Assembly (NCBI RefSeq): GCF_003751945.1
Contig: NZ_RJKL01000001.1
Span: 1,240,001 to 1,304,000 of the forward strand
Source: Couchioplanes caeruleus
GTDB lineage: Bacteria; Actinomycetota; Actinomycetes; Mycobacteriales; Micromonosporaceae
Direction of reading: 5' to 3'
Length of the DNA stretch: 64,000 nt
The position numbers were made by a program, and so were the translations under genes. Below, in pieces: positions 13,201 through 45,251 of the stretch; within the stretch, counting starts at the first letter, position 1; the number at the start of each line of letters is the position of its first letter. The notes under the pieces are model-generated. The model made no database searches, was not told the DNA's origin, and worked only from the letters and a program-made list of their open reading frames with translations.

Positions 13201-16200
13201 CCGCGGCCGGCTCGGCGACCGGGGTGTCCGGGGCCTGCTCCAGGATCACGTGCGCGTTGGTACCGGAGATGCCGAACGACGACACGCCGGCACGGCGGGG
13301 CCGGCCGGTCTCGGGCCAGTCGGTCCTGGCGTCGACGAGTCGCACGGCACCGGCCGACCAGTCCACGTGCGAGGACGGCCGGTCGGTGTAGAGGCTGCGT
13401 GGCACGCTGCCGTGGCGCATCGCCATGACCGTCTTGATGATGCCGGCGACACCGGCGGCCGCCTGGGTGTGACCGAGGTTCGACTTCACCGAGCCGAGCA
13501 GCAGCGGCCGATCCTCGGCCCGCTCCTGCCCGTACGTCGCCAGCAGCGCCTGCGCCTCGATCGGGTCACCGAGGATGGTGCCCGTACCGTGCGCCTCCAC
13601 GACGTCGATGTCACCGGTGCCGAGCCCGGCGCCGGCCAGCGCGGCGTGGATCACCCGCTGCTGCGAGGGGCCGTTCGGGGCGGTCAGCCCGTTGGACGCG
13701 CCGTCGGAGTTGACCGCGGACCCGCGGACCACGGCGAGCACGGTGTGGCCGTTGCGGCGGGCGTCGGACAGCCGTTCGAGAACGAGGACGCCGACGCCCT
13801 CGGACCAGCCGACGCCGTCGGCGGCGTCGGAGAACGCCTTGCAGCGTCCGTCCGGTGACAGCCCGCGCTGACGGGAGAACTCGATCAGTGAGGTCGGTGT
13901 GGACATCACCGTGACGCCACCGGCGAGGGCGATCGTGCATTCGCCGGCGCGCAGGGCGTGCATGGCCCAGTGCAGGGCGACCAGCGACGAGGAGCAGGCG
14001 GTGTCGACCGAGACGGCCGGGCCCTCCAGGCCGAGGGCGTACGCGACGCGGCCGGACGCGATGCTGGCCGAGGTGCCGCTGCCCTGGAAACCCTCGAACC
14101 GCGGTCCGGTGAGGAAGGCCGAGTAGTCGTTGTACATGATGCCGGTGAACACACCGGCGCGGGTTCCGCGCAGGGTGACCGGGTCGATGCCGGCCCGCTC
14201 GATCGCCTCCCACGAGGCCTGCAGGAGCAGCCGCTGCTGGGGGTCCGTGGCCAGTGCCTCTCGGGGGCTCATCCCGAAGAACGCGGGGTCGAAGTCGCCG
14301 GCGTCGTGCAGGAAGCCGCCGTAGCGCGCGTAGGTGGTACCCAGGTGGTCGGGATCGGGGTGGTAGAGGTGCTCGAGGTCCCAGCCGCGGTCGACCGGGA
14401 GGCCGGAGATCGCGTCGGCCTCCTCCGCGACGAGCCGCCAGAGGTCCTCGGGCGAGGAGACCCCTCCGGGGAAGCGGCAGCTCATCCCGACGATGACGAT
14501 CGGGTCGTCGGCGGTGGCCGCGAGCGGCGTGGTCCGGGCGGCCGCCGGTGACGCGCCCGTCAGCTCGTCGAGCAGGTGGGCGGCGAGTGCGGTCACCGTG
14601 GGATAGTCGAAGATCATCGTGGCGGTGCTGCGCAGGCCGGTCACGGCGGCGATCCGGTTGCGCAGCTCGACCGCGGTGAGCGAGTCGAAGCCCAGGTCGG
14701 TGAAGGGACGGACGGGGTCGACGTCGTCCGGGCCGGCGTGCCCCAGGACGAGGGCCACCTGCGTGCGCACGAGACCGACGAGGGTGGCGTGGCGCTCGTC
14801 CGTCCCGAGGCCGGTGAGTGTCTGCATCAGACCTGCCGCTGCCTCGGTGCCGGAGACCGCGGCCCGGCGCGGGGCCCGGATCAAGCCCCGCAGGAATGCC
14901 GGCACGTCACCTCGGGCCCGCAGCACCGGCAGGTCGAGGCGGACCGGGAGCACCACGGGGCCATCGTGGGTGAGAGCGGCGTCGAGCAGCGCCAGCCCTT
15001 GCTCCGTGGTGAGAGCCGGCGTGCCCGCCCGGCCGAGGCGGTCGAGATCCGTCGCGGACAGCATGCCGGCCATCCCGGCCTGTTCCCACGGGCCCCAGCC
15101 CAGCGACAGGGCGGCCTTGCCTTCGGTACGCCGCAATTCGGCGACCGCGTCGACGAAGGCGTTCGCGGCGGCGTAGTTGGCCTGCCCGGCGGCTCCGGCG
15201 GTGCCGGAGAAGGACGAGAAGACGACGAAGCCGGCGACGTCACCGGCCGCGCGGTGCAGATTCCACACCGCGTCCGCCTTGGGGCGCAGCACCGTGCTCA
15301 GCCGTTGCGGGGTGAGCGACTCCACGACCCCGTCGTCGAGCACTCCGGCGGCGTGCACCACCGCGGTCAGGTGGTCGATGCCGGCGACGAGAGCGTCGAC
15401 GGCATCGGCGTCGGCGACGTCGCACGCGGTCACCCGGACCCGGGCGCCGGCCTCGGTCAGCTCGTTCACCAGCTCGGTGACGCCGTCGGCGTCCGCGCCT
15501 CGGCGGCTGACCAGCAGCAGGTCGCGCATGCCGCGCGCGACGAGGTGCCGGGCGGTGACCGCGCCGAGACCGCCGGTACCGCCGGTGACGAGCACCGTGC
15601 CGTCCGGATCCCAGGCGAGTGCGTTGCTGGTGGCGGCGACGCGGGCCAGCCGGGCGCACAGGACCCGGCCGCCGCGCAGGGCGAGTTGCGGTTCGTCCGA
15701 GCCCAGGGCGGCGAGCAGGCCGTCGGTGCCGCCGGCCGGGTCCAGGTCGACCAGGCCGAAGCGGCCGGGGTGCTCGGCCTGCGCGGAACGCACCAGGCCG
15801 CGTACCGCGGCCGCGGCAGGGTCGGTGTCCGCGCCGCGGGTGACGAAGACGAGCCGGACGGCGTCCTTCCGGGCCAGGCAAGCTTGGACCGCCGTCAGGG
15901 CGTCGGCCGTCGCGCGGTGCGCCGCGTCGGCAGGTTCACCTGCGGGCGCGACCTGGGTCACGACGATCGGTGCCCGCTCGTCGGTGGGCAGTTCGGCGGC
16001 GAGGCCGAAGGCGTCGGGTCCGGACAGGGCGATCGCCGAGGGTAGCGCCGAGGTGCCTCGCAGGGGCACCCAGTCGAGGTGGTAGAGGGCCGACCGGCCC
16101 GCGGCGGCGTTGCCGTCGGGGGCGCGCAAGGTCAGGGCGCCGATGGAGACGACAGGCTGTCCGGCGGGATCGACCGCGGCGACGGTGACCGTGTCCTCAC

Positions 16201-19200
16201 CGGCCGGGGACAGCCGCACGCGCAGGGTCGTGGCACCCGTGGTGTGCAGGGTGACGTCCCGCCAGGCGAACGGCAGGCCGGCAAGACCCATCAGCGGCGT
16301 GGCGTGCAGCACCGCGTCGAGCAGCGCCGGATGGATGCCGAACGCCTCCGCCTCCACGGTCTCCGGCAGCGCGACGTCGGCGTACACGTCGTCGCCGTCG
16401 CGCCAGGCGGCGCGCAGTCCCTGGAACGCCACGCCGTAGCGGAAACCCGCGTCGGCCATCCGTTCGTAGTGTCCGGTCAGGTCGATCTCGCCGGCTTCCT
16501 CCGGCAGACCGGGCACGACGTCGGCATCGGCGGCGTCCGGGGCCAGCGTTCCCGTGGCGTGCGGTGTCCATGGCGCGTCCTCGGCGCCTTCCGGCCGGGA
16601 GTACACGTCGATCGTGCGGTGACCGGCTTCGTCCGGGCTGCCCACCCAGACCTGCACGTCGACACCGTGCTCAGCGCTCAGCGTCAGAGGGTTGGAGAGG
16701 GCCAGGTCCTCGACGCGGTCGCAGCCGGCCTCGTCGCCGGCGCGGACGGCCAGATCCAGCAGCGCCGTGCCGGGCAGCAGCACGGTTCCCCCGACCTCGT
16801 GGTCGGCGAGCCAGGGGTGCGAATGCACCGAGAGACGGCCGGTGAGCAGCAAGCCGTCCGTGTTCGCCAGGGAGACGGCGGACGCCAGCAGCGGGTGGTG
16901 GGCAGCGCCCGTGCCGGGAACGGCGGCGCGGGTGCCCCGGGGCCAGAACCGGCGGCGCTGGAACACGTACGTGGGCAGGTCGGCGCGTTCACTGCCGGTG
17001 CCGGCGAACCACGCCTCCCAGCGCACCGGCACTCCGCGCACGTGCAGCTCGGCGAGCGCGCCGGTGAAGGTGGCGGCCTCGGGCCGACCCGGTCGCAGCA
17101 CGGCCACGGCGGCGGCGTCCTCGACGTTGCCGCGGGTAGCCGCCGCGAGCGTGCTGTCCGGGCCCAGCTCCAGGTAGGCGGTAACGCCGTGGTCGCGCAA
17201 CCACGTGACGCCGTCGGCATACCGGACCGTGGCACGGACCTGCCGCACCCAGTAGTCGGGGGACGTGAGCTCCTCGGCGGTAGCGAGGCGACCCGTGACG
17301 GTCGAGACGATCGGGATGCGCGGAGCGGCGAACGTCAGCCCCGACACCACCTGCGCGAACTCCTCCAGCATCGGATCCATCCGATGCGAATGAAACGCAT
17401 GACTCACCGCCAACCGCTTACTCCGACGACCCGGCAACCGCGACACCACCGCCGCCACAGCACCCTCGTCACCCGACAGCACCACCGACACCGGCCCGTT
17501 CACCGCCGCCACCGAGACACCCTCACCCAGCAGCGGCACCACCTCACCCTCGCAAGCCTCCAGCGCCACCATCACCCCACCGGCTGGCAACCCCTGCATC
17601 AACCGACCCCGCGCCGCCACCAGCACACACGCATCCACCAGCGACAACACCCCCGCCACATGCGCCGCCGCGACCTCACCCACCGAATGACCGATCAGAT
17701 GGTCGGGGGCGATGCCGTGCTCGGCGGCGAGCCGGTGCAGGGCGACCTCGACGGCGAACAGGGCGGGCTGGGCGCTGCCGGTCAGCTCCAGCGCGGCCGG
17801 GTCGTCACCCCACACGACCTCGCGCAGGCCCTCGAAGTGGCCGCACACCTCGTCGAACGCCTCGGCGAACACCGGGAACCGCGCCGACAGCTCACGCCCC
17901 ATGCCCAGCCGCTGCGAACCCTGACCAGGGAACAACACCGCCAACTTGCCGCGGCCGTGGGTGTTTCCGGTGATCAGGCCGGGTGCGTCCTGATCCGCGG
18001 CGAGCGCGGCAAGGGCGGCGGCCGGGTCCGCGGCGGTGACGGCGGTCCGGTGTTCCAGAGCGGAGCGGGAGATGGCCAGGGCGCGGGCGACCGCCGTCGG
18101 GTCCTCACCGGTGTGCAGGAAGTCGAGCAGGCGGCGGGCCTGGTCGCGCAATGCGTCCGGGGTCCGGGCGGAGATCAGCCACGGCAGCTCGCCGGGTGTG
18201 ATGGTTGCCGGCTCGGCCGCGGGCGGCTCAGGGGCCTCCTCGAAGATGGCGTGCGCGTTGGTGCCGCTGAGGCCGAACGAGGAGACGCCGAAACGACGGG
18301 GCTCCGCGCCCCGCGGCCAGGGCCGCTGCTCGGTGAGGAGCTGTACGGTGCCCGAGCTCCAGTCAACATGGCGGGACGGCACTTCGGCGTGCAGGGTCCG
18401 GGGCAGCATCTCGTGGCGCAGAGCCATGACCATCTTGATGATGCCGGCGACGCCGGCGGCCGCCTGGGTGTGGCTGATGTTCGACTTCACCGAGCCGAGC
18501 AGCAGTGGGTGGTGGGGGTCACGGCCTCGGCCGTACGTGGCGATCAGCGCCTGCGCCTCGACCGGGTCGCCGAGTGTGGTGCCGGTGCCGTGCGCCTCGA
18601 CCACGTCCACCTGGTGCGCCGAGAGCCGGGCGTTGACCAGGGCGGCCTCGAGCACGCGCTGCTGCGACGGGCCACTCGGCGCGGTGAGGCCGTTGGAGGC
18701 GCCGTCGGAGTTGACGGCCGAGCCGCGCAGGACGGCGAGGACGGTCCGGCCCTTGCGGCGCGCCTCCGAGAGGCGCTCGAGGACCAGCACGCCGACGCCC
18801 TCGGACCATCCGGTGCCGTTGGCGGAGTCGGCGAACGAGCGGCAGTGTCCGTCGGCGGCGAGGCCGCCCTGGCGGGCCATCTCGACGAACGTGGTGGGAC
18901 TGGACATGACCGTCACGCCGGCGGCGATCGCCGTTCCACACTCCTGCTGGCGCAGTGAATGCGCGGCCAGGTGCAGGGCGACCAGGGAGGACGAACATGC
19001 GGTGTCGACGGTGACGGTAGGGCCGATCGAGCCGAAGAAGTAGGCGAGGCGTCCGGAGAGGACACTCGTGGCGTTTCCGGTCAGCACGAAGCCCTGCACG
19101 TCGTCCTCGGGACCGACGCGGTAGTCCTGCGGCATGCCGCCGACGAACACACCGGTGCGGCTGCCCCGCAGGGACGCCGGGGGGATACCGGCCCGTTCGA

Positions 19201-34907: not shown

Positions 34908-36545
34908 TCAGGAAAGCAGATCGCGGCGCCGGTACCCGATCGCCCCGGCAGCAACCAGGATCAGCGTCACCACTGTCATGGCCGCGGTCGCCGGCCAGTT
35001 GGGAGCCGTGTGGGGCACCGCGGCGAGGTGCGCGAACGGCGATACGTCCACTACCCATTGCGGGGCGTTCACGCTCTGTGCGATGACCAGCAGCAGGAAG
35101 CCGCCCACGGTCGGCACCGCGCCGATGGCCGTCACGGCGCGGGGCAGCCAGCCGAACGCGAGGACCGCCGCGCCCACACTGAGCAGGGCGAGGGGCAGGG
35201 TGTTCCAGACGCCGCCCAGAGCCGCCGTAAGCCCCAGGTCTCCTGGCGTGGCCGTGACGCCGAGCCAGGTCGCGAGCCCGGCGACCGTCGTGAGGACGAC
35301 TGCGCCGATCACCGCAGGAATCGTCTCGGCGGCAAGCAGCCGGATGCGCGAGACCGGCTGGGCGGCGAGCAGGGCGAGGTGGCGGCCGGCTTCGGCCTTC
35401 GCGAAGGCGTCCACCCGGCTGGCCGCGAACCCGCCGACCGGCAGAGCGAGCAGGGCGAAGATGGTGGCCGCGTAACCCTCGACCGTGGCCAGGCCGGTGA
35501 AACCGGCCTGCACGGCCGCGTCGGCGAAGGCCGGATTGTCGGTCAGGAACCTTGTCATCGTGTCGGCGATCAGCCCGATGAGCAGGAAGTAGGACGCGAC
35601 GCCCGCGGCCCAGCCGCCCAGCGGAGGCAGCAGGCGGCGCAGCGCGAAACCCTCCACCGAGCCGAGCAGTGCCGTCCGTGAGGCCCGAGTGGCCGCCGGG
35701 GACCGCAGCGCGCCGCCGACGTCGCGACGACCCGCCACTGCGACAGCGGCCGTGGCCAAGAGGATCGCGGCCGCGGCGAGGACGAGCAGCGGCGCCCACC
35801 GGTTCCGGGCGTACGGCTGACTGAGCTCGAGGAGCCCGAACGGCGAGAGCCACCGCAGCCAGGCGACCGTGTCCACGCCGTCGCCCACCATCCGGGCGAG
35901 CAGCGTCACGGCGAGCACCGCGATCGCCGTACCGGTCGCCGCCGACCGCGCGGTATGGATCTGTGCGCTGAGCGCGGCCGTCGCGGCGAAGAACACGCCG
36001 AGCAGAGACAACCCGGCACCGTGGACGACGGCACCGTTCATGTCAGTGCCAGTGGCCGCCAGCGATGCTGAGACCGCCGCGCCGAACGCGACCGGGACCG
36101 CGCCGACGACGAGCAGGTGGGTGGCGAGGGCGGCCTGCAAGGGAACCCGTCCGGCCAGAAGGATGTCCCAGCGCCCCGCGTCTTCCTCGCCGCGGGTGAT
36201 TCTCGTCGTGGTGAGCACACACCACACGCCGATCAGGGCGGCCAGCACGGTGCCGGTGCGCCAGACGGTGAACCCGCCCGGATCGTCCAGGGCCACCGGC
36301 TCACCGAACAGCGTGCGGATCGCGGGATTGGTGGCCAGCGACTGCAGGCCGCCGGCCACGGCGCTGTCAGCCATCAGCTGCTCGTAGGTGGCCGCGACGA
36401 GCGCCGACATGCCGGCGGCGAGAGCAACCACGACGAGCCCGCCGCGCCGGATCAGACGAGCGGCGAGTCCGGCGAGGGCACCCGCCGGCCGTCTCTGAAC
36501 GGCGGCTCCCGGCCGTCGCGCCGCGGTCAGCGCCCGGGTACTCAT
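34908..36545 (-). CDS. ABC transporter permease, putative polyketide-antibiotic exporter type
   Basis: 545 aa. The ATG at 36545 overlaps the ATPase stop (ATGA). The protein is two similar halves, each with about six hydrophobic segments, and carries the RGEEDAGRWDILLAGRV motif typical of the ABC-2-like family annotated as exporters of polyketide antibiotics. Together with the ATPase it forms a complete two-gene exporter. The annotation as an antibiotic exporter is family-wide; transport of the polyene is only a possibility because the gene pair lies beyond the likely cluster boundary. Confidence 0.85.
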   Translation of the reverse strand: MSTRALTAARRPGAAVQRRPAGALAGLAARLIRRGGLVVVALAAGMSALVAATYEQLMADSAVAGGLQSLATNPAIRTLFGEPVALDDPGGFTVWRTGTVLAALIGVWCVLTTTRITRGEEDAGRWDILLAGRVPLQAALATHLLVVGAVPVAFGAAVSASLAATGTDMNGAVVHGAGLSLLGVFFAATAALSAQIHTARSAATGTAIAVLAVTLLARMVGDGVDTVAWLRWLSPFGLLELSQPYARNRWAPLLVLAAAAILLATAAVAVAGRRDVGGALRSPAATRASRTALLGSVEGFALRRLLPPLGGWAAGVASYFLLIGLIADTMTRFLTDNPAFADAAVQAGFTGLATVEGYAATIFALLALPVGGFAASRVDAFAKAEAGRHLALLAAQPVSRIRLLAAETIPAVIGAVVLTTVAGLATWLGVTATPGDLGLTAALGGVWNTLPLALLSVGAAVLAFGWLPRAVTAIGAVPTVGGFLLLVIAQSVNAPQWVVDVSPFAHLAAVPHTAPNWPATAAMTVVTLILVAAGAIGYRRRDLLS

Positions 36546-37432
36546 CGGACCGGCTCGCCGTAGTAGTCGAGGAAGATCTCCTCCAGGGTTGGTTCCCGGA
36601 CGGTGAGCGTGGCCACCTGGCTGGTGGCCAGCGCTTGCAGCGCGGGTCCTGGCGGGCCGGTCAACGCGAAACGCAGCGACCCGGGCGCGGTGTGGACGGA
36701 TTCCACACCCGGCACCGTGTCCATCCGGGGCGGGGCGCCGGTGTACGTCACGGTGATCTCGGCGCGGTGCATCCGGCGCAGATCGGCGACGGTGGCGACC
36801 TCGACCAGGCGCCCGGAGCGCAGGATGCCCACCCGGTCGCACACCGCCTCGACCTCGGTGAGCATGTGCGAGCTCAGGAAGACTGTCTGGCCGCGGCCGC
36901 GGGCCTCGCCGACGGCGCGGCGGAACTCGCGTTCCATCAGCGGATCCAAACCGCTGGTGGGCTCGTCGAACACCAGCAGCGGCGCCCTCGTGGCGAACGC
37001 CGCCACCAGCGCCACCTTCTGCCGGTTGCCCGTCGAGTACGCCCGGCCCGGCTTGGACACGTCCAGCTCGAAGCGCTCCACCAGCTCGTCGCGGTACGCC
37101 ATATCGACGCCGGGCCCGGTGCGGGCCAGCAGCTCCAACGACTCTGTCCCGGTCAGTTGGGGCCACAGGGCCACATCCGCGGGAACGTAGGCCAGGTGGC
37201 GGTGAGCGCGGGCCACGTCGGCCGCGTCGTCGCCGAAGACCGAGGCGTGGCCGGCGGACGGTCGCGCCAGCCCGAGCAGCAGCCGGATGGTGGTGGACTT
37301 GCCGGCGCCGTTGGGTCCGAGGAAACCGAACACCTCTCCGGCCGGGACCTCCAGCGTCAGGTCGTCGAGCGCCAGCACCCGCCGTCCATACCGCTTCGTC
37401 AGACTCTCGGTGCGCAGGGCGATCTTGTTCAT
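36542..37432 (-). CDS. ABC transporter ATP-binding protein
   Basis: 296 aa from the ATG at 37432 (GGAGG upstream). Walker A GPNGAGKST, signature-like STGNRQKVAL (degenerate for LSGGQ), Walker B LLVFDEPTSGLDP, H-loop SSHM. The C-terminal 80 aa form a DrrA/CcmA-type extension. First gene of the exporter operon. A 27-nt leader element (37463-37489) lies 31 nt before the start. Confidence 0.92.
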   Translation of the reverse strand: MNKIALRTESLTKRYGRRVLALDDLTLEVPAGEVFGFLGPNGAGKSTTIRLLLGLARPSAGHASVFGDDAADVARAHRHLAYVPADVALWPQLTGTESLELLARTGPGVDMAYRDELVERFELDVSKPGRAYSTGNRQKVALVAAFATRAPLLVFDEPTSGLDPLMEREFRRAVGEARGRGQTVFLSSHMLTEVEAVCDRVGILRSGRLVEVATVADLRRMHRAEITVTYTGAPPRMDTVPGVESVHTAPGSLRFALTGPPGPALQALATSQVATLTVREPTLEEIFLDYYGEPVR

Positions 37433-37462
37433 CGACGGCCTCCGGTCACATGCGGAAACAGA

Positions 37463-37489
37463 ACCGCCGACCAGGCTTCCCGGCACACC
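37463..37489 (-). promoter_or_regulatory. 27-nt conserved leader element, copy A (ABC exporter)
   Basis: Minus strand contains the core GCYGGGAAGYCTGGTCGGC with flanks GGTGY and RGT. Its 3' end is 31 nt before the ATPase ATG. Copies B and C have the same placement before cation antiporter genes. Confidence 0.65.
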
Positions 37490-37589
37490 TGAACTCACCG
37501 TACTCCTGTCTCGCCGAGACGAGAAGGGCATGGTCCAGGCGATACGTCGGCTCACTCGACCACGTCACATGATCCTTCGTGTCGGCCGA

Positions 37590-37607
37590 TGTCACGAAAC
37601 TGTCATG
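37590..37607 (+). promoter_or_regulatory. Direct-repeat site 1 (TGTCACG-N4-TGTCATG)
   Basis: Two heptamers with an 11-bp period, ending 73 bp before the STAS gene start at 37681. This matches the geometry of OmpR/PhoP-family binding sites. See sites 2-5. Confidence 0.6.
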
Positions 37608-37680
37608 GTTCCGCAGGAGCGCCGCGACAGAGGCGGACGAATCTGGCTCGTGGACCGTCGGAGGATCGAAAGTTGAGAAA

Positions 37681-38001
37681 ATGGTGCGCGCGCAGTCCGG
37701 CAGGGTGCCCGAGATCGTCGTCGAGGTGACCGGCGCACTCGCCGGCTCGACCGTGGAGGCATGGAGCCATACCTTCACCCGCGCCTCGGACTCCCGTCCC
37801 GCCAGGCTGATCATCGACCTGGCGGCGTGCCCGAGCATCGACACGGCGGCCATCGTGATCCTGCTACGGGTGCATCGCCAGATGAAGCGGTCCGGCGGGC
37901 GGCTGTTGCTGCGCCGTCCCGGGCCCGCCGTGTTGCGCCTGTTCTATGTGGCACGAGTCGATCAGGTACTCGAGGTCGAGGGTTCCGGTAGGCCGCAATA
38001 G
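37681..38001 (+). CDS. STAS-domain protein (anti-sigma factor antagonist-like)
   Basis: 106 aa from the ATG at 37681; longer in-frame starts to 37579 would include the direct-repeat site. A single STAS domain: EIVVEVTGAL, LIIDLAACPSIDTAAIVILLRVHRQMK, with Thr in the position phosphorylated in SpoIIAA-type antagonists. Probably binds an anti-sigma kinase encoded elsewhere. Convergent with the GerMN lipoprotein gene. Confidence 0.75.
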   Translation: MVRAQSGRVPEIVVEVTGALAGSTVEAWSHTFTRASDSRPARLIIDLAACPSIDTAAIVILLRVHRQMKRSGGRLLLRRPGPAVLRLFYVARVDQVLEVEGSGRPQ

Positions 38002-38007
38002 GCGAGG

Positions 38008-38577
38008 TCAGGCTGGGCCGATGAGGATGCGGTAGTCCGCGGCGCGCAGCGGTTCGCTGGACAAGGTGCCGTCGCCGCGAGGCACCTGCAGGGGCTGGCC
38101 GTCGCGGTGGAAGGACACGGCGGCGATGTCGGCACGCGAGGTGAGGGTGCAGACGATCTGGCCGTACGCGAGCACCTCGTCGCTGCGCGCCGCGTTGTCG
38201 TCGGCCTCGCTGATCTCCACGGTGGCGACCGCGGCACCGGGCGGCACGGTCACCGTCAACGTGGTGGTGGCCAGCGCGGTGGACAGTCCTTGCGCCTGTT
38301 CGGCCGGGGTGGGACCGGCGATGAGCTGGTCGAGTTGCCGTTGCGGGCCGGGCACGGCACCGACGCGGCGGACGGTCTGCGCCAGCCGGTTGTCGCGGAC
38401 CAAGCAGAGGACCTGAGCCACCTCCCCCGCCGGTTCGCTCGCGGCGGCGGACGGGCTGGCGTTGAGCGGGCGGCGCGGCAGGGTAACCGGATGGGGCTCA
38501 TCCTGGGTGGGCACCCCGCAGGCTGAGGCCAGGAACAGGGTCGCGGTGAGCACGGCGAGACCACGTACGGTGATCAT
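38008..38577 (-). CDS. GerMN-domain lipoprotein
   Basis: 189 aa. A lipobox LASAC at residues 16-20 marks a membrane-anchored lipoprotein. The rest is a GerMN domain (LIAGPTPAEQAQGLSTAL... TVTVPPGAAVATVEIS). The ATG overlaps the kinase stop (ATGA), so it is the third gene of the two-component operon, resembling the MtrAB-LpqB arrangement. It may modulate the sensor kinase from outside the membrane. Confidence 0.88.
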   Translation of the reverse strand: MITVRGLAVLTATLFLASACGVPTQDEPHPVTLPRRPLNASPSAAASEPAGEVAQVLCLVRDNRLAQTVRRVGAVPGPQRQLDQLIAGPTPAEQAQGLSTALATTTLTVTVPPGAAVATVEISEADDNAARSDEVLAYGQIVCTLTSRADIAAVSFHRDGQPLQVPRGDGTLSSEPLRAADYRILIGPA

Positions 38578-39917
38578 GTCTGCTGTCCGGATAGGTCGAT
38601 GCGGAAGCGGGCGCCGCCGCCGGGACGCTCGCCGACGGTGGCCTGGCCGCCGTGTGCGGCGGCGTGCTCGGCGACGATGGCCAGGCCGAGGCCGGTGCCG
38701 TCGTCGTTGCCGCGGGCGCGGGCGGCCGGGCCACGCACGAACCGGTCGAAAATGGTCGTCCGATCTTCGGGAGCGACACCGGGACCGGCGTCGTCGACTT
38801 CCAGGTAGCCGTCGCCGACGCGGACCGCGGTCGGACCGCCGCCGTAGCGGATGGCGTTGTCGATCAGATTGCCGAGCACCTGCTCGATCCGGCGCCGGTC
38901 CACCAGCCAGAACTCCGGCGTATCCGGAGCAATCTCCACCAGATCGGCGGCCAGGCCCCGCGAGCGGCAGACCCGCCGGGCCAGCTCCGCGGCGTCCACC
39001 GGCTCCCGGTGCACCGGCTGGTCGCTGCGGGCCAACTCCAGCAGGTCGTCGACGAGCGTCTGGAAGCGGCCGACCTCCGCGGTGAGCAGTGCCATCGCCG
39101 CCGCGGTCCGCTCGTCGAGACCGGCGCGGCGTTTCTCGATCACGCTGGCCGCGGCCGCCAGGGTCTGCAACGGCGAGCGCAGTTCGTGGCTGACGTCGGC
39201 GGCGAACCGTCGGTCGCGGTCCAACCTGCGGGTGAGCTGGTCGGCCATGTCGTTGAACGCGATCGACAGCGGCGCCAGGTCCGGTTCGGTAGCCGGGTCG
39301 AGGCGGGTGGTCAGATCACCGCCGGCGATACCCCGGGCCGCGCTCGCGACGGCGGTCAGGGGGCGCAGCGCGTGCCGGGTCACGTACCAGCCGACGGCGG
39401 CGCCGCCCGCGGCGACCATGATGGCGACAGCGGTGAGCACCAGCGCGAGGGCTTGCAGCGTCCGGTCCAGCTCGTCCAGCGAGATGATCTCGTAGAAGGC
39501 GGCGGAACCGGCCAGCGGAACGCCCACGATCAGTGCCGGCCGGCCGTCGCGTTCGACGCGTTGCGCCCCGGCTTCGCCGCCCGAGGTCATCTCCTGCAGC
39601 GCCCGTGGGACGGCGGTGTCGGCGGCCAGATCGGCACTACGCGAGTGCCAGCGGCCGCCGTAGTGCAGCAGCACGTACCGGTCGGAGCCGGTGCCCAACG
39701 AGCGGAGCACCTCCAGCACGTCCGGGTCGGCGCCGGTGATGCCGGCGTTGACCACCGCGGCGTCGTAGTAGGTGGAGCGCACCGCGGTGCGCTCGCGCTC
39801 GGCGAACAAAGTGTTGCGGATCGAGGTGTACGACACCAGACTGATACAGGCCGACAGCATCAGCGCCCCGAGGGCGAAGGCCGCGCTCACCCGAGTCCGC
39901 AGGCCGATCGGCTTCAC
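38574..39917 (-). CDS. Sensor histidine kinase
   Basis: 447 aa, GTG start overlapping the response regulator stop (GTGA). Two membrane helices (about 12-34 and 155-178) flank an extracellular sensor of about 120 aa. Then HAMP, HisKA with phospho-acceptor DVSHELRSPL, and HATPase with NLIDNAIRYGG, DDAGPGV and GTGLGLAI. All catalytic motifs are intact. Partner of the OmpR-type regulator encoded just upstream. Confidence 0.95.
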   Translation of the reverse strand: MKPIGLRTRVSAAFALGALMLSACISLVSYTSIRNTLFAERERTAVRSTYYDAAVVNAGITGADPDVLEVLRSLGTGSDRYVLLHYGGRWHSRSADLAADTAVPRALQEMTSGGEAGAQRVERDGRPALIVGVPLAGSAAFYEIISLDELDRTLQALALVLTAVAIMVAAGGAAVGWYVTRHALRPLTAVASAARGIAGGDLTTRLDPATEPDLAPLSIAFNDMADQLTRRLDRDRRFAADVSHELRSPLQTLAAAASVIEKRRAGLDERTAAAMALLTAEVGRFQTLVDDLLELARSDQPVHREPVDAAELARRVCRSRGLAADLVEIAPDTPEFWLVDRRRIEQVLGNLIDNAIRYGGGPTAVRVGDGYLEVDDAGPGVAPEDRTTIFDRFVRGPAARARGNDDGTGLGLAIVAEHAAAHGGQATVGERPGGGARFRIDLSGQQT

Positions 39918-40597
39918 GGCTGCAGCTTGTAACCCAAGCCCCGCACCGTCACCAAGTGCCGAGGGTGGCCGGTATCAGTTTCGATCTTGTGGCGCAGCCG
40001 TCCCACGTGCACGTCGACCACCCGCTCGTCGCCGAACTCGTGACCCCACACCCGCTGCAGCAACTGCTGGCGTGACAACACCAGCCCCGGATGGTCGGCA
40101 AGTTCACACAACAGCCGGAACTCGGTACGGGTGACGGCCACCAGTTCCCCGCCCAGCCGCACCTCCCCCGCCTCCGGGCGTACCTCCAGGTCACCGAAGG
40201 CCAGCACCGAGGTCACCGGCACGACGGCCTGCGGCGCCCGCGCGCGGCGACGCAGGGCGCGCAACCGGGCGGCCAGCTCCTTGACCGCGACGGGTTTGAC
40301 GACGTAGTCGTCCGCGCCGGCCTCCAGCGCGGCGACGATGTCGTGGGTGTCGTCACGGGCGCTGACCACGACGATCGGGACGTCGTCGTCGCGGCGCAGC
40401 TGACGGATGCACTCGTAGCCGTCCATGCCCGGCAGCATGAGGTCCACCAGTACGGTGTCCGCCGGTTGCCGGCGCTGCGCGGCGATGCCTTCCTCCGCGG
40501 TGGCCACCGCGTGCGCGGTGTATCCCTCGTCCTCCAGGGCCATGGCCAGCGACAGGCGGATCCGGTCGTCGTCCTCGATCAGCAGTACGGCACTCAT
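39914..40597 (-). CDS. OmpR-family response regulator
   Basis: 227 aa from the ATG at 40597. The receiver domain has acidic residues EDDD and phospho-Asp in VLVDLMLPG. The winged-helix DNA-binding domain has TRTEFRLLCELADHPGLVLSRQQLLQRVWG and VDVHVGRLRHKIE. First gene of the operon. Direct-repeat site 2 lies 60 bp upstream, which suggests autoregulation, and the same motif precedes the STAS gene at 37681 and the small membrane gene at 40745. Confidence 0.95.
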   Translation of the reverse strand: MSAVLLIEDDDRIRLSLAMALEDEGYTAHAVATAEEGIAAQRRQPADTVLVDLMLPGMDGYECIRQLRRDDDVPIVVVSARDDTHDIVAALEAGADDYVVKPVAVKELAARLRALRRRARAPQAVVPVTSVLAFGDLEVRPEAGEVRLGGELVAVTRTEFRLLCELADHPGLVLSRQQLLQRVWGHEFGDERVVDVHVGRLRHKIETDTGHPRHLVTVRGLGYKLQP

Positions 40598-40656
40598 ATC
40601 CGCATGATGCCCCCTGACCGTGTCATCGGTCGGCGGGGACCGGTGACAGCGCGGTT

Positions 40657-40674
40657 TGTCACGCAACTGTCATG
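40657..40674 (+). promoter_or_regulatory. Direct-repeat site 2 (TGTCACG-N4-TGTCATG)
   Basis: Lies in the divergent region between the response regulator (start 40597) and the membrane protein gene (start 40745); it ends 70 bp before the latter. Same orientation and spacing as site 1. Confidence 0.6.
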
Positions 40675-40744
40675 CGTGCGGGGACATCCCGCAGATCAGG
40701 CGAGGCAGTCTGACCGTTACCGATCCACATCAGGAGGGTCCGCC

Positions 40745-41047
40745 ATGACGGCGCTCAGTCTGATCATCGCCGTGACGGTCGGCCTCGTCGCAGGCGTCAC
40801 CGGTGGGCTACAGGTCCGTCGGAGCCGGCCGGTGCCGCTGTGGGTGCCGGTCGCCGCCGGCGTCGCCGCGGCGATCCTGGCAACCGTCATCGCCCGGATG
40901 GCGGACAGCGACCGGCCCGGTCCCACCCTGGTGGAACTGCTCCTACAGGTGATCTTCGCCGCCGCCGGCGTCGCCGTGGTCGCGGTCACCGCCGACCGGC
41001 CACCGGCCGGTACCCGTTGGGAGCGCAGCGGTAGGGAGGCACCATGA
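40745..41047 (+). CDS. Small membrane protein
   Basis: 100 aa behind AGGAGG. Three hydrophobic stretches (about 3-22, 32-50, 62-81) predict an integral membrane protein. No family recognised. Its stop overlaps the next ATG (ATGA), so it is translated together with the zinc-ribbon/STAS protein. Confidence 0.75.
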   Translation: MTALSLIIAVTVGLVAGVTGGLQVRRSRPVPLWVPVAAGVAAAILATVIARMADSDRPGPTLVELLLQVIFAAAGVAVVAVTADRPPAGTRWERSGREAP

Positions 41048-41643
41048 CGGCGGTTCCCGGGGACGGGCGCGGGGTCGTCACCGTGATCTGCGATGCCTGC
41101 GGCGGGGTGGAGGAGACCGCCGACGTGCTGCGCGACGAGGACGTGGTGTGGCCGTCGCTCACCCTGCTCGGCTGGACCGGCTCGCCGTTCGCAATGGGCA
41201 TGCACCGCTGTCCCGGGTGCGCGCAGAGCGTACGAGCCGAACGCTTCCCCGCCGCAGCGCCGGCGCCGGACGAAGCGGCGGACGCCGCCTGCGACATACG
41301 AGACGTCGCGGAACCTCGCGCCCGGATCGTGCTGCTGCGCGCAGACCTCGACCAGCATCTGGTCGACCGGATCCGGCCTGCCCTGGTGGAGGCCGCAGCC
41401 GCGGGCCGCCACGTGGTCGTCGACATGCGCCACGCCGGCGTCATCGATTCCGCCGGGCTCGGCCTGCTGGTCCGCGCGTACCGGGCGGCGAAGCACCGCG
41501 GGGCGACCGTGTGCCTGGTCGCACCCTCCCGATTCGTTCTCACCGTCCTGCACACCATGCACCTCGACGATGTCTTCCCCACCTACCCGGACACCCGAAC
41601 GGCAATGCGCCACCTCGCACCGCCCGCCGTCACGGCGTGCTGA
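41044..41643 (+). CDS. Zinc-ribbon plus STAS-domain protein
   Basis: 199 aa. The N-terminal 60 residues hold two CxxC pairs (CDAC and CPGC) that could form a zinc ribbon. The C-terminal 110 residues are a STAS domain with VIDSAGLGLL, the phospho-Ser site of anti-sigma antagonists. The combination suggests a redox- or metal-responsive antagonist (inference). Second gene of the operon downstream of direct-repeat site 2. Confidence 0.8.
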   Translation: MTAVPGDGRGVVTVICDACGGVEETADVLRDEDVVWPSLTLLGWTGSPFAMGMHRCPGCAQSVRAERFPAAAPAPDEAADAACDIRDVAEPRARIVLLRADLDQHLVDRIRPALVEAAAAGRHVVVDMRHAGVIDSAGLGLLVRAYRAAKHRGATVCLVAPSRFVLTVLHTMHLDDVFPTYPDTRTAMRHLAPPAVTAC

Positions 41644-41703
41644 GCAGCATTCCCAACCGGCTACGCCAAGCGGGCACCTCCATGTCCGGCGAGCACACTC
41701 ACG

Positions 41704-41880
41704 TCAGCTAGTTCCGACCAAGCTGGAGCCGGCGGTCACATCGAGCGCACCGGTCACCTCAGGGCCCAGCACGAGACCCGCGGCCAGGAACAGCACCGCA
41801 GTCGACAAGATGGTGCGCCCGGCGAGAGTGGACACGAGGACCGCCAGCAGAAGCACACAAGCGAAAGAGATCAGCAACAC
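41704..41880 (-). pseudogene. Truncated CPA1-type Na+/H+ antiporter (N-terminal fragment)
   Basis: 58 codons from a GTG at 41880 (GGAG upstream). The sequence (VLLLAVLVSTLAGRTILSTA then VLFLAAGLVLGPEVTGAL) is the first membrane segments of a NhaP/CPA1 antiporter, but a stop follows the second segment; the family is over 400 aa. The leader element copy B is still in place 35 nt upstream. Confidence 0.65.
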
Positions 41881-41914
41881 GACGAAAGCTCCGGTCGGTG
41901 AAAGACGAGCAACC

Positions 41915-41941
41915 ACTGCCGACCAGACTTCCCAGCACACC
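41915..41941 (-). promoter_or_regulatory. 27-nt conserved leader element, copy B (truncated antiporter)
   Basis: Same core as copies A and C, with one C-to-T change in the left arm (GCTGGGAAG) that still allows a G-U pair with CGGC. It lies 35 nt before the fragment's GTG. Confidence 0.65.
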
Positions 41942-41997
41942 TCGACGTCACGTTACCCGACAGGTCAGCGCACGCCTGGCGAGGCTCGGCGGGGCGG

Positions 41998-42432
41998 TCA
42001 CGAGACGCGGCTCACCTGGAAACCCAGCACCTCCAGCGACCGGACAACGGACACCAGGCAGGCGAAGTCGAGGGGCTTTGTCGCGTACCCCTGCACCGGC
42101 AGGTTCTCCGCGCGCAGGATCCGCTCGGCCTCCGGCGAATCGGTCAGCAGGATCACCGGGACGGCGGCAGTCTCCGGCTTGGCGCGCAGGTGGCGCAGCA
42201 CCGCACGCCCGTCGCGTCCCGGAAGGTTCACGTCGAGCAGCACGACCGCCGGAACCGCGGGCTGGGAGAACGGGGGCTCGCCGTCGAGGTAGGCCAGCGC
42301 GCGCCGCACGTCGTACGCGATCTGTACCCGGTTGATGAGCCGGTGCTCGGCGAACTCCTCACGCATCAGCAAAGCCTCGGCCGGATCGTCCTGGACCACC
42401 AGCAACTCGACGTGCCCGGCCGTGCGATTCAT
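41998..42432 (-). CDS. Stand-alone response-regulator receiver (Rcp1-like)
   Basis: 144 aa, receiver domain only: acidic pair QDD, phospho-Asp in VVLLDVNLPGRDG, Thr in ILLTDS, Lys in ATKPLD. The insert after the second helix (YDVRRALAYLDGEPPF) is typical of phytochrome-linked Rcp1-type regulators. There is no output domain and no adjacent kinase. Confidence 0.88.
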   Translation of the reverse strand: MNRTAGHVELLVVQDDPAEALLMREEFAEHRLINRVQIAYDVRRALAYLDGEPPFSQPAVPAVVLLDVNLPGRDGRAVLRHLRAKPETAAVPVILLTDSPEAERILRAENLPVQGYATKPLDFACLVSVVRSLEVLGFQVSRVS

Positions 42433-42737
42433 CGTCTCTTTGCCACCCGACCCATGACGTCCTGCGTGAGAGTTCGATGGTAGGGACTCGCGGGAAGCGC
42501 GGCTGGGGTCGTGGCGTACCTGCGAGCGGTCCGGGCCTCATTCGGATGAATGTCTTCGCAGCCGCCTGACCAGGAGATATTCGCGCTTCTCGAGAAGTCG
42601 GAGCGGCTGGAACGCCACCCTGGCCGCCTAGGAACTGTCATGTGACTGTCACGAGATCGAACCGTTCTCGTCATAGCGGCTGGGCCTTCGGCAGATCCGG
42701 TCGAGGTCACCCCACGTACGACGTTCCGCGGACGTTC
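42433..42737. other. Intergenic with direct-repeat site 3
   Basis: TGTCATG-N4-TGTCACG at 42636-42653 (11-bp period) lies 204 bp upstream of the receiver gene start. No gene was seen in this stretch. Confidence 0.5.
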
Positions 42738-42929
42738 TCAGGCGGGCTCGGGAACCGCTGGCGGCGGGCTCGGATCCGGCGACGGCTCGCCCGGTACCGG
42801 TTCGATCGGCGGCGGAGGCAACGGATCGGGCGTGTCCGGAGCCAGCTCACCGGGATCGTCGGGTATCGGCGCCCCAGGATTGAGCGGCGGGTACCGATCC
42901 GGATCAGACGGAATGCGTTGAATGGTCAT
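42738..42929 (-). CDS. Small proline-rich protein
   Basis: 63 aa from the ATG at 42929, supported by GAGGAGAACCG immediately upstream. Nearly every third residue is Pro (ends PPPAVPEPA), with many Asp/Glu. No signal peptide and no recognised family; probably disordered. Confidence 0.5.
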   Translation of the reverse strand: MTIQRIPSDPDRYPPLNPGAPIPDDPGELAPDTPDPLPPPPIEPVPGEPSPDPSPPPAVPEPA

Positions 42930-43378
42930 CGGTTCTCCTCTCACGCTGCGATTCCCGCGCGGAGCGGGGCACAGATTTGGCTACCCTGCAGGCGGCGCGG
43001 CAAACGGTATCCGGCGGTTATGCCGCTGCCACTCGGCCTTTCGAAGTCGGCGACGAGGGCGTAGACGGCCGAGCCCGGGTTGGAGACGATCGCCGGAATG
43101 TCATTGAAGCCTGCGGCGATCGAACTCCAACCGAGGAGAACGTCCACGTCAAAGCCGTCACACACTTGTCATGGATTAGTGCGCGTTTCGGCTTACCACC
43201 CAGAAAGCGCTAGGGCGCTTTCAGGCTGTCTTGTCATGCAACCGTCATGCGGCCGCGCCACAACGGTCACGGCAGAATCACATGGTGGGTAGCGGGACCG
43301 AACCCACCCAGAGCCCGTGTGCGGGCGTACCGATGCGGGCGCCCGCACACGAAGCCTGGCCCGTGGTACCGCCCGCAA
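42930..43378. other. 449-bp intergenic with direct-repeat sites 4 and 5
   Basis: CGTCACA-N4-TGTCATG at 43156-43173 and TGTCATG-N4-CGTCATG at 43232-43249 share the 11-bp period of sites 1-3. No gene begins at the distance seen for sites 1 and 2. A 74-aa minus ORF (42941-43165) lacks support. Confidence 0.5.
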
Positions 43379-44695
43379 TCAGTGCCCGCCGCCGGACCCG
43401 GTCTCGTACACGTCGGGAATGCCGTCGCGATCGGCGTCGACCTGCTCGGCGTCGTGGATGCGCCGGTACACCCGGTTGCGCAGCCGCAGCACGACGCCGG
43501 CCAGCAGCACGGCGATCAGCGAGCCGGTCAGCACCGCCACCTTGACATGGTCCTCGCGAGGATTGCCCGTACCGAAGGCAAGCTCGCCGATGAGCAGCGA
43601 GACGGTGAACCCCAGACCGCCGAGCATCGCCAAACCAACCACGTCCGTCCAGCTCAGCCCCTCGTCGAGACTCGCGCGGGTGAACCGGGCCACGAGCCAC
43701 GTCGCCGCGGTGATGCCGAGGGTCTTCCCGACGACCAGCCCGGCGACGATACCGACGGCGACCGGGTCGGTCAGTGAGGTCGCGAGGCCGCTGAGCCCGC
43801 CGATGGTCACCCCTGCGGACAGCAGCGCGAACACCGGCACAGCGAACCCGGACGACAACGGCCGGAACCGGTGCTCGAAGTGCTCGGCCAGCCCCGGCCC
43901 GGCACCCGGGCCACCGACCTTGTCACTGCGCACGACCGGGACGGTGAACGCCAGCAACACCCCCGCGACGGTCGCATGCACACCCGACCCGTGCATCAGC
44001 GCCCACGTCGCGGCGGCCAGCGGCAGCAACAGCCACCAGGCGCGGACCCCTCGCTGGACCAGCAGGCCGAATGCTCCCAGCGGCAGCAGCACACCCAGCA
44101 GCGGCAGCACCGACAGCTCGGCGGTGTAGAACACGGCGATGATGGCGATGGCGAGCAGGTCGTCCACCACCGCCAGCGTCAGCAGGAACGTACGCAGCGC
44201 GGCCGGCAGATGCCGGCCGACCACCGCCAGCACGGCCAGGGCGAAGGCAATGTCGGTCGCGGTCGGGATGGCCCACCCGCGTAGCGCGCCCTCGCCGCTG
44301 CCCAGGTTCAGCACCGTATATATCAGCGCTGGGACGATCACCCCGCCCGCGGCGGCGGCGACCGGGACCACGGCCCGGCGCGGATCGCGCAGATCTCCGG
44401 CGACGAATTCGCGTTTGAGCTCCAGCCCGGCTACGAAGAAGAAGATTGCGAGCAGGCCGTCGGCTGCCCACGTCGCCACGCTCAGGTCGAGGTGCCAGGC
44501 CGCCGGTCCGAGCTTCCACTGCCGCAGGGCCTCATACGCCGGGGCCCACGGCGAGTTCGCCCAGACGAGCGCCACGACCGCCGCGATCAACAGCAGCGCA
44601 CCGCCGATCGTCTCCTGGCGCAGCACCTCGGCGATGCGGCGCGCCTCGAGCCAAGAGCCGCGCCGGAACAGGGGCGCACGGGAGTTGTCGCTCAC
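43379..44695 (-). CDS. nhaA: Na+/H+ antiporter NhaA
   Basis: 438 aa from a GTG at 44695. About eleven membrane helices. The signature segments of NhaA are present: [12 protein letters not shown] near the N-terminus, [16 protein letters not shown], and [11 protein letters not shown] with the paired catalytic Asp. It exchanges cytoplasmic Na+ for external protons. The C-terminal tail has an EF-hand-like stretch ([13 protein letters not shown]), not usual for NhaA. Leader element copy C is 34 nt upstream. Confidence 0.95.
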
Positions 44696-44728
44696 AACGG
44701 GGTGCTCACTTTCGGGGTCGGGCCGGTC

Positions 44729-44755
44729 ACTGCCGACCAGACTTCCCGGCGCACC
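44729..44755 (-). promoter_or_regulatory. 27-nt conserved leader element, copy C (nhaA)
   Basis: Same core as copies A and B. Its 3' end is 34 nt before the nhaA GTG. GCCG and CGGC at the ends of the core can pair around an invariant GGAAGTCTGGT loop. Confidence 0.65.
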
Positions 44756-45251
44756 AGCGCCAACCCTAACGCACCAGTTCGTTCGCGCGTATCCGATCAC
44801 ATCCGTGGTGCCGCCGCGCACCGAAGCCTCGCCCGGCCGACCCTTCACCACAAGCGCGGCGGTTGTCGGCCTAGGCGTCACACCGGGCAGACCCGGTTTG
44901 CCGAAGACGCGCCGGTTGCCCCGGCCGCGTAACGCCGGACCGCACGCGTCGATGACGCGCCCGCGCCGACCTGCGGAACGCGCGTCGCGCACCGCGGATC
45001 GGACGATCAGTCCGCGCAGTCGGCACTGTCCCCAGTGGTGCAGACGGGGCTGAGAGCGTGAGACCCCGCGGACCACCCGACCTGGACGATACGCAGCGCC
45101 GAGGCGACACCCGGAGCCGATCACTGCACCGCACCATGCCGGCTCGTCGACGTCGCGCATGCCCAGACCACAGCATGCTGCCACCCGCCCGTCCGTCTGG
45201 ACGGTGTAGGTGCCGAGGATGGTCTGGCAGCCTCGAGGAAGGTCTCGCGGG

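Follow-up and report, generated by a model that had tools for sequence, protein, structure and literature searches.

A 25-nt hairpin in the leaders of actinomycete cation-transporter genes is a candidate ion- or pH-responsive RNA switch

The 64,000 nucleotides of Couchioplanes caeruleus DNA analysed here (the window) raise the question of why one short sequence is repeated ahead of three ion and solute transporter genes, and whether it acts there as RNA. Exactly three matches to the pattern GCYGGGAAGYCTGGTCGGC occur in the window, at 37466-37484, 41918-41936 and 44732-44750 of the minus strand, and a fourth, similar site with three mismatches lies at 8881 on the plus strand. In 100 shuffles of the window, sites with no more than three mismatches averaged 0.20 (maximum 2); this and the exact count bear out the three repeats of the original prediction. 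The 16-base core occurs four times in the whole 8.43 Mb genome, and its reversed pattern not once. In register, the conserved unit spans 25 nt at 37489-37465 (copy 1), 41941-41917 (copy 2) and 44755-44731 (copy 3); all three were read in the sequence and match the pattern. Since the downstream start codons are ATG 37432, GTG 41880 and GTG 44695, respectively, the predicted element-to-start spacings of 31, 35 and 34 nt are correct to within a few bases.

The three targets that had been named, an ABC exporter, a truncated CPA1 antiporter and NhaA, were confirmed by domain and family matches and by tblastn. Copy 1 precedes a DrrA-like ABC transporter ATPase of 296 residues (36542..37432, minus strand; PF00005, E 2.6e-24, and PF13732). 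This is followed on the same strand by an open reading frame for a hydrophobic protein (34908..36545, start approximate), which has no Pfam or NCBIfam match and, from its position, is presumed to be the permease of the exporter. Copy 2 stands before a CPA1 Na+/H+ antiporter remnant of 58 codons plus stop (41704..41880, minus strand), recognized by tblastn through 56 aligned residues with 77% identity to the CPA1 protein of a relative; the remnant has no Pfam match on its own, and a search of the window at E 1e-3 turned up no further CPA1 piece. Copy 3 precedes an NhaA Na+/H+ antiporter (43379..44695, minus strand; PF06965, E 4.9e-131), which also scores above the NCBIfam equivalog cut-off for TIGR00773.

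The element is not peculiar to this locus. Its consensus, 5'-GGNGN GCCGGGAAGYCUGGUCGGC R-3', is actinomycete-wide, and the core is present in 87 of 100 related genomes. It lies in the sense orientation near the start codon, at a median distance of 36 nt from C24 in the 211 called leaders; such a location in the 5' leader, in cis to the downstream gene, is generally expected of a riboswitch, and is here read from sequence only. At 208 of 265 sites, a -10 box of the form TANNNT begins 12-15 nt ahead of G1, and because of this placement G1 is probably the transcription start (+1). In the window, -10-like boxes are found on the minus strand 7 nt before G1 of copy 1 (TACGGT, 37497..37502; a placement that is enriched in sets of 164 and 265 sites), 8 nt before that of copy 2 (TAACGT, 41950..41955) and 7 nt before that of copy 3 (TAGGGT, 44763..44768). 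The likely start therefore coincides with the element's first base, the opposite of a start downstream of it, which the original prediction had regarded as evidence against itself.

Bases 6-9 of the element pair with bases 21-24; U.G or C.A at 5/25 lengthens this stem, and G10.U20 may perhaps be added as well. Both bases of one stem pair have changed in nine elements that possess a promoter and a gene, every time to U-A; the pairs concerned are 7:23 (three cases), 8:22 (two) and 6:24 (four, all from one genus), with no doubly changed 9:21 among the matches listed. One real element (L330) carries an uncompensated C7.A23. In a 40-column scan, covariation is strongest between bases 5 and 25 (p 2e-18), where U.G accounts for 130 and C.A for 76 of 265 sites, and C-G, which is avoided, for only two. 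Copy 1 has U5.G25 and C15; copy 2, the only single-change stem variant with U8, is a U8.G22 wobble with U5-A25; and copy 3 has C5.A25. One further pair count was made on rows already chosen because they pair, and so adds no independent support for covariation. A lack of covariation was the other outcome that had been named as adverse to the original prediction; instead, the element has a secondary structure backed by covariation, as is generally looked for in riboswitches. G1, G2, G4 and the nine-base loop are nearly invariant across sites. Pairing of G1G2 with bases 15-16 was considered and set aside because base 15 may be U, C, A or G across the 265 sites while G2, which is fixed by the search pattern, stays constant. 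Comparative sequence evidence thus gives good support to a structured RNA of 25 nt at the probable 5' end of the mRNA.

Which genes follow the element was assessed with 224 copies gathered before any NhaA-based search. The first gene encodes NhaA in 116 cases, CPA1 in 29, a CBS protein in 11 and a Na+/Ca2+ exchanger in six, and a NhaD/ArsB-like gene comes next after 10 of the 11 CBS genes. NhaA is the most frequent first gene, CPA1 comes next, and ABC exporters, CBS/NhaD-like pairs and Na+/Ca2+ exchangers follow; ABC ATPases are preceded by 22 of 265 elements. A minority of elements stand before PPDK-like, glycosyltransferase, hydrolase, SpoIIE or DUF genes having no obvious ion link. In an independent family search, the element was present at 15 of 26 full-length NhaA loci; at the other 11 nothing similar occurs in the 500 nt examined, the best sites having 6-10 mismatches. 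The tie between a leader RNA and cation antiporters, as originally proposed, stands more firmly than three copies could establish, but its associations are wider, extending to ABC exporters and to a minority of apparently unrelated genes, and one of the three targets in the window is a gene remnant.

How might such a hairpin influence the downstream gene? Many leaders contain a complement of the element's 3' half (UCUGGUCGG), which either lies directly ahead of the Shine-Dalgarno region or extends into it. The complement of GGUCG in the element, CGACC, is present in 82 of 208 leaders (and missing in 126) compared with 21 of 176 control leaders, and CCGACC in 50 of 208 compared with 4 of 176. 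The minus-strand leaders of the window follow this general enrichment: GACCGGA, a complement of the 3' half, runs into the Shine-Dalgarno region of copy 1 (37441..37447), CCGACCGGA, a 9-nt complement, overlaps that of copy 2 (41890..41898), and CCGACC is complementary to GGUCGG in copy 3 (44716..44721). Predicted folding indicates that opening the ribosome footprint costs 5.53 kcal/mol more without the hairpin, against 2.78 in shuffled leaders (sd 0.19), so that an unfolded element is predicted to obstruct ribosome access. When the Shine-Dalgarno core was scored alone, its predicted accessibility without the hairpin did not fall below that in shuffles; plain sequestration of this motif was accordingly discarded, the positive result coming from the wider footprint. 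Two of the three window leaders have a fold stability no greater than that of shuffles, and no U run of an intrinsic terminator was noticed by eye after the complement in the leaders viewed.

On balance, we favor, with modest confidence, the reading of the element as a candidate ON switch of very small size that would act on translation and serve Na+/Li+ or pH homeostasis, in which the hairpin would free the ribosome site upon a signal. The nine-base loop together with G1, G2 and G4 would probably form the sensing core. With the element unfolded, the leader complement would pair with UCUGGUCGG and obstruct the ribosome landing site; a signal that stabilizes the hairpin would release this site and allow the antiporter to be made. 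The structure, promoter placement, gene associations and enriched complement emerge from the sequence comparisons, and we infer the ON logic and the translational level of control. We consider an ion or a pH change linked to Na+/H+ exchange the most likely signal. As a guess, Na+ comes first, though we would stop short of calling it probable; something else altogether is less likely, and Li+ and pH, which we rank equally, are less likely again.

A regulatory protein could bind the same hairpin without any direct sensing by the RNA, either as a translational regulator or by way of a factor, or RNA polymerase itself, touching the 5' end as it emerges. The nearly invariant loop and GGNG end, with a lower stem free to covary, resemble protein-bound hairpins, and the fixed spot at the transcript start fits a polymerase-linked role; we nevertheless consider this unlikely, as the complement before the start codon and the footprint prediction are explained without a protein. 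That the hairpin merely shields the mRNA from decay is in keeping with its placement, by the -10 box, at the very 5' end, but such a function needs neither an invariant nine-base loop, an avoided C-G at 5/25, a restricted gene set nor a leader complement, and appears improbable. Strong sequence conservation and a constant position relative to the -10 box are also what would be seen if +1 to +25 were a DNA operator bound by a repressor that responds to salt or pH; this is rejected as very improbable because the stem and 5/25 covary, compensatory changes and U.G/C.A covariation across 20 bases not being expected of duplex DNA. Scarcely credible is a leader peptide starting at G2, tested by frame counts and codon-phase G+C and not supported: N3 is U, giving GUG, at 216 of 265 sites, 89 of 211 leaders have their start codon in frame +2 where about 70 would be expected, and in copies 1 and 3 the GUG frame ends in a stop that overlaps the start of the gene, but 49 of 265 sites lack GUG, changes at N5 and N15 alter residues, G+C content shows no codon-phase bias in the 211 leaders, and such a stop overlap is seen in 37 of them compared with 22 and 29 for the other two frames.

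Few classes of alkali-ion riboswitch have been described so far. Further Na+ and Li+ sensors are still to be discovered according to PMC9646797 and PMC9337991. We tentatively suggest, while judging it somewhat short of probable, that the switch represents a new ion-sensing riboswitch class of Actinomycetota, its aptamer of about 25 nt taking the first nucleotides of the transcript into its fold and controlling several types of Na+/H+ antiporter (NhaA, NhaD-like, CPA1 and Mrp). The element, which is common in actinomycetes, joins the genes for NhaA, NhaD-like, CPA1, Mrp and Na+/Ca2+ exchanger proteins into one apparent regulon and, if this suggestion is true, would possibly be the smallest natural ion aptamer and a missing Na+/Li+ sensor of the phylum. 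It is small enough for direct tests of binding and structure, and could provide laboratory Streptomyces with a compact regulatory part that responds to salt or pH.

The absence of a named RNA family, already remarked in the original prediction, was upheld by scans with the Rfam library (which we take to include the Li+-II, or nhaA-II, and Na+-I, or DUF1646, families), in which no family reached threshold at the elements. A weak match to Bcj14 (10.9 bits, E 6.1) on the opposite strand across copy 3 was taken as chance. A literature search of open-licence PMC articles did not find a published description of the element. Among known systems, the Na+-I riboswitch (DUF1646 motif) and the Na+-II variants are leader RNAs of Na+-related transporter genes (PMC9337991), a property the element shares; unlike Na+-I, which is built from two extended stems, P1 and P2, and is described there from Firmicutes, Proteobacteria, Acidobacteria and Verrucomicrobia (the main text does not contain the word Actinobacteria), the element has no extended P1 and P2 and no Rfam match. 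The Li+-II riboswitch is likewise an nhaA leader RNA, reported, in the account of PMC9646797, only from some Gammaproteobacteria, and differs in that no Rfam match occurs at the elements. Expression of nhaA and other cation transporters is switched on by the Li+-I riboswitch (nhaA-I motif, RF03057), most members of which are believed to do so through the ribosome binding site; this RNA has two stems, measures about 55-73 nt and is reported from Proteobacteria (PMC9646797). The RF03057 model matched none of the elements; in 60 class genomes it gave no hit above cut-off and three weaker matches, and no second conserved helix was seen beside the hairpin in the position table. Like Li+-I, the element is a leader RNA associated with nhaA, preceding it in more than half of the gene count given above; unlike that two-stem (P1, P2) RNA, it is a single 25-nt hairpin at the probable start of the transcript.

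The original prediction of three exact repeats in the window was borne out, well above chance (37465–37489, 41917–41941 and 44731–44755, all on the minus strand, before a DrrA-like ABC ATPase, a CPA1 remnant and NhaA, respectively), and a search of the 8.43 Mb genome revealed a fourth copy at C1:2066237, again upstream of an NhaA gene. The aligned copies and their flanks share the form 5′-G1 G2 N3 G4 N5 G6 C7 C8 G9 G10 G11 A12 A13 G14 Y15 C16 U17 G18 G19 U20 C21 G22 G23 C24 R25-3′. Of the first 164 sites, collected with patterns restricted to bases 9–24 or 6–24, 163 carry G1, G2 and G4 although these lie outside the fixed pattern, and the sole exception (L030) is probably a chance match.

The core was found in 87 of 100 genomes selected as relatives, the window's own included; across these 100 a reversed-pattern control gave three matches in total. 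Phylum-wide, the full form occurs in 41 of 149 genomes (62 matches) and the reversed pattern in none. A scan of named genomes returned at least 119 stretches with the element, the genera among the matches listed including Streptomyces, Arthrobacter, Amycolatopsis, Nocardia, Mycolicibacterium, Micromonospora, Microbacterium and Frankia. Exact elements also lie on two MAG contigs labelled as non-Actinomycetota (L041, Chloroflexi; L120, Ktedonobacteraceae), reflecting either transfer or binning error. At two loci (L052 and L105) two elements stand back to back, 130–160 nt apart, each with its own gene downstream.

A TANNNT hexamer begins 12–15 nt 5′ of G1 in 208 of 265 sites. Since the usual actinobacterial spacing between −10 box and start would put +1 at G1, the element probably forms the 5′-end of the mRNA. 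The hexamer is missing before several Streptomyces copies. Five loci from Amycolatopsis, Nocardia and Lentzea (L046, L054, L096, L123 and L142) possess no plain TANNNT box and share a stretch like TTACGGCATCTTTAC 5′ of the element, which suggests another promoter or a regulator.

The stem was examined with patterns that tolerated changes at any two of bases 7, 8, 22 and 23 (296 genomes) or of bases 6, 9, 21 and 24 (246 genomes). Among the matches listed, nine otherwise intact elements have one stem pair altered on both sides, every time to U-A: 7:23 in three families (L198, L211, L263), 8:22 in two (L207, L264) and 6:24 in one genus (L265–L268), the last perhaps a single event. All nine possess a correctly placed −10 box and precede NhaA (four), ABC ATPase (four) or MrpA-like (one) genes; the only listed match whose two changes fall at positions that do not pair (L223) has neither the box nor such a gene. 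A pair-by-pair search (three pairs, 197 genomes) listed 18 matches: seven of these double changes, three single changes and eight with an extra change elsewhere, the −10 box being missing at all three of the latter inspected (L329, L332, L333). The single changes are window copy 2 (U8.G22), a real element upstream of CPA1 (C7.A23; L330) and a site without promoter (L343). Copy 2 stands upstream of a 58-codon CPA1 remnant (window 41704–41880) and is perhaps decaying alongside its gene. A separate pair count agrees with the stem pairing, its 53 rows coming from stem-preserving patterns and thus not being independent.

The top covarying pair in a 40-column scan of 163 sites is 5/25. Its states across 265 sites, counted without regard to kinship, are U.G 130, C.A 76, U-A 15, A.G 13, A.A 12, C-G 2 and others 17. 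As wobbles, U.G and protonated C.A are isosteric, so the position seems to call for a wobble and to shun a strong C-G pair. Both states coexist within single genomes (G116, G152, G153, G155, G415) and therefore do not represent one old split.

Downstream genes were typed through their similarity to representative genes whose family had been set with Pfam or by eye. The 224 elements gathered before any NhaA-based search precede NhaA (116), CPA1 (29), ABC ATPases (18), CBS proteins (11), Na+/Ca2+ exchangers (6), APC-like permeases (4), TrkH (1), TrkA (1), others (16) and untyped genes (22). The 265-element set, tilted toward NhaA by a later family search, comprises NhaA 141, CPA1 33, ABC 22, CBS 11, CaCA 6, NhaD-like 5, APC 4, hydrolase 4, MrpA 3, PPDK 3, glycosyltransferase 2, DUF6653 2, eight singles, 18 untyped and three too short. 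An NhaD/ArsB-like gene follows 10 of the 11 CBS genes, and one otherwise untyped gene encodes a P-type cation ATPase. Seven of the 96 matching plasmid records were inspected: nhaA adjoins the element on Streptomyces pFRL5 and Glutamicibacter pQL1, an ArsB/NhaD transporter follows it on an M. branderi plasmid, and a hydrolase then nhaA on a Rhodococcus plasmid; of the other three, one has a hydrolase, one no gene listed nearby and one no annotation. In reverse, the element lies upstream of 16 of 30 fetched NhaA loci (41 matches in the family search); for full-length NhaA the figure is 15 of 26, nothing element-like occurring within the 500 nt examined at the other 11. The proposed placement in leaders of cation-antiporter genes holds for the NhaA and CPA1 majority, and does not account for the elements before ABC, PPDK-like, glycosyltransferase, SpoIIE and DUF genes.

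PPDK-like (PEP-synthase-like) genes follow the element three times (L070, L094, L105) and GT28 glycosyltransferases twice (L031, L137); their best NCBIfam neighbours, far under cut-off, include rifamycin-inactivating enzymes, and ion transport is no explanation for these targets. Beside copies 1 and 2, plus-strand ORFs at 37579–38001 and 41044–41643 appear STAS-domain-like by eye, and the element precedes a STAS protein at L119 and a SpoIIE phosphatase at L133, a hint that the element may be connected with stress control by partner switching.

A rule-based call gave start codons for 211 of the 265 sites. The most over-represented leader 5-mer, ahead of Shine-Dalgarno words, is CGACC (71 of 163, versus 29 in shuffles), the complement of the element's GGUCG(G). 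It occurs in 82 of 208 leaders versus 21 of 176 leaders of other genes at the collected loci, and CCGACC in 50 versus 4; the control stretches, at 45 nt, exceed the element leaders, which average 34 nt. CGACC mostly lies 11 nt 3′ of C24, ending usually 11–22 nt upstream of the start codon; in copy 2 the complement spans nine bases and extends to the Shine-Dalgarno region, and the predicted fold shows it paired. When 208 leaders were folded, the ribosome footprint (−20 to +12) was 5.53 kcal/mol costlier to open in the free ensemble than in the presence of the hairpin (shuffles 2.78, SD 0.19); for −14 to −5 the difference was 2.28 kcal/mol (shuffles 1.19, SD 0.16). Relative to the free ensemble, the hairpin state is higher by 9.0 kcal/mol, against 5.7 in shuffles; natural leaders therefore favour a competitor of the hairpin. 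The Shine-Dalgarno core scored alone did not differ from shuffles, and predicted folds of two of the three window leaders were no better than shuffles. We interpret the element as a predicted translational ON-switch, in which the leader complement would compete with the hairpin. CGACC is missing from 126 of 208 leaders; with these weighed in, we consider the overall reading, a 5′-end hairpin that would free the ribosome site when a signal stabilises it, somewhat likelier to be right than wrong.

No Rfam family reached threshold at the window copies or at 20 loci, in keeping with the original view that no named RNA family could be assigned, and searches of the open-licence PMC literature turned up no recognised description of the motif. 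Three window stretches (8996–9070, 13484–13558 and 18485–18559) match the antisense RNA family ASpks; they are probably not RNAs but conserved coding sequence of polyketide synthases. Judged from sequence, this actinomycete leader RNA has real structure and is tightly linked to Na+/H+ antiport. It is a strong candidate for a riboswitch class that would be new and very small, with a putative ligand. RF03057 (Li+-I) exceeded its cut-off in none of 60 class genomes, with three weaker matches; at least 32 of the same genomes carry the exact element. By use, the closest known systems are the Li+ and Na+ riboswitches, from which the element differs in architecture and reported hosts (PMC9646797, PMC9337991).
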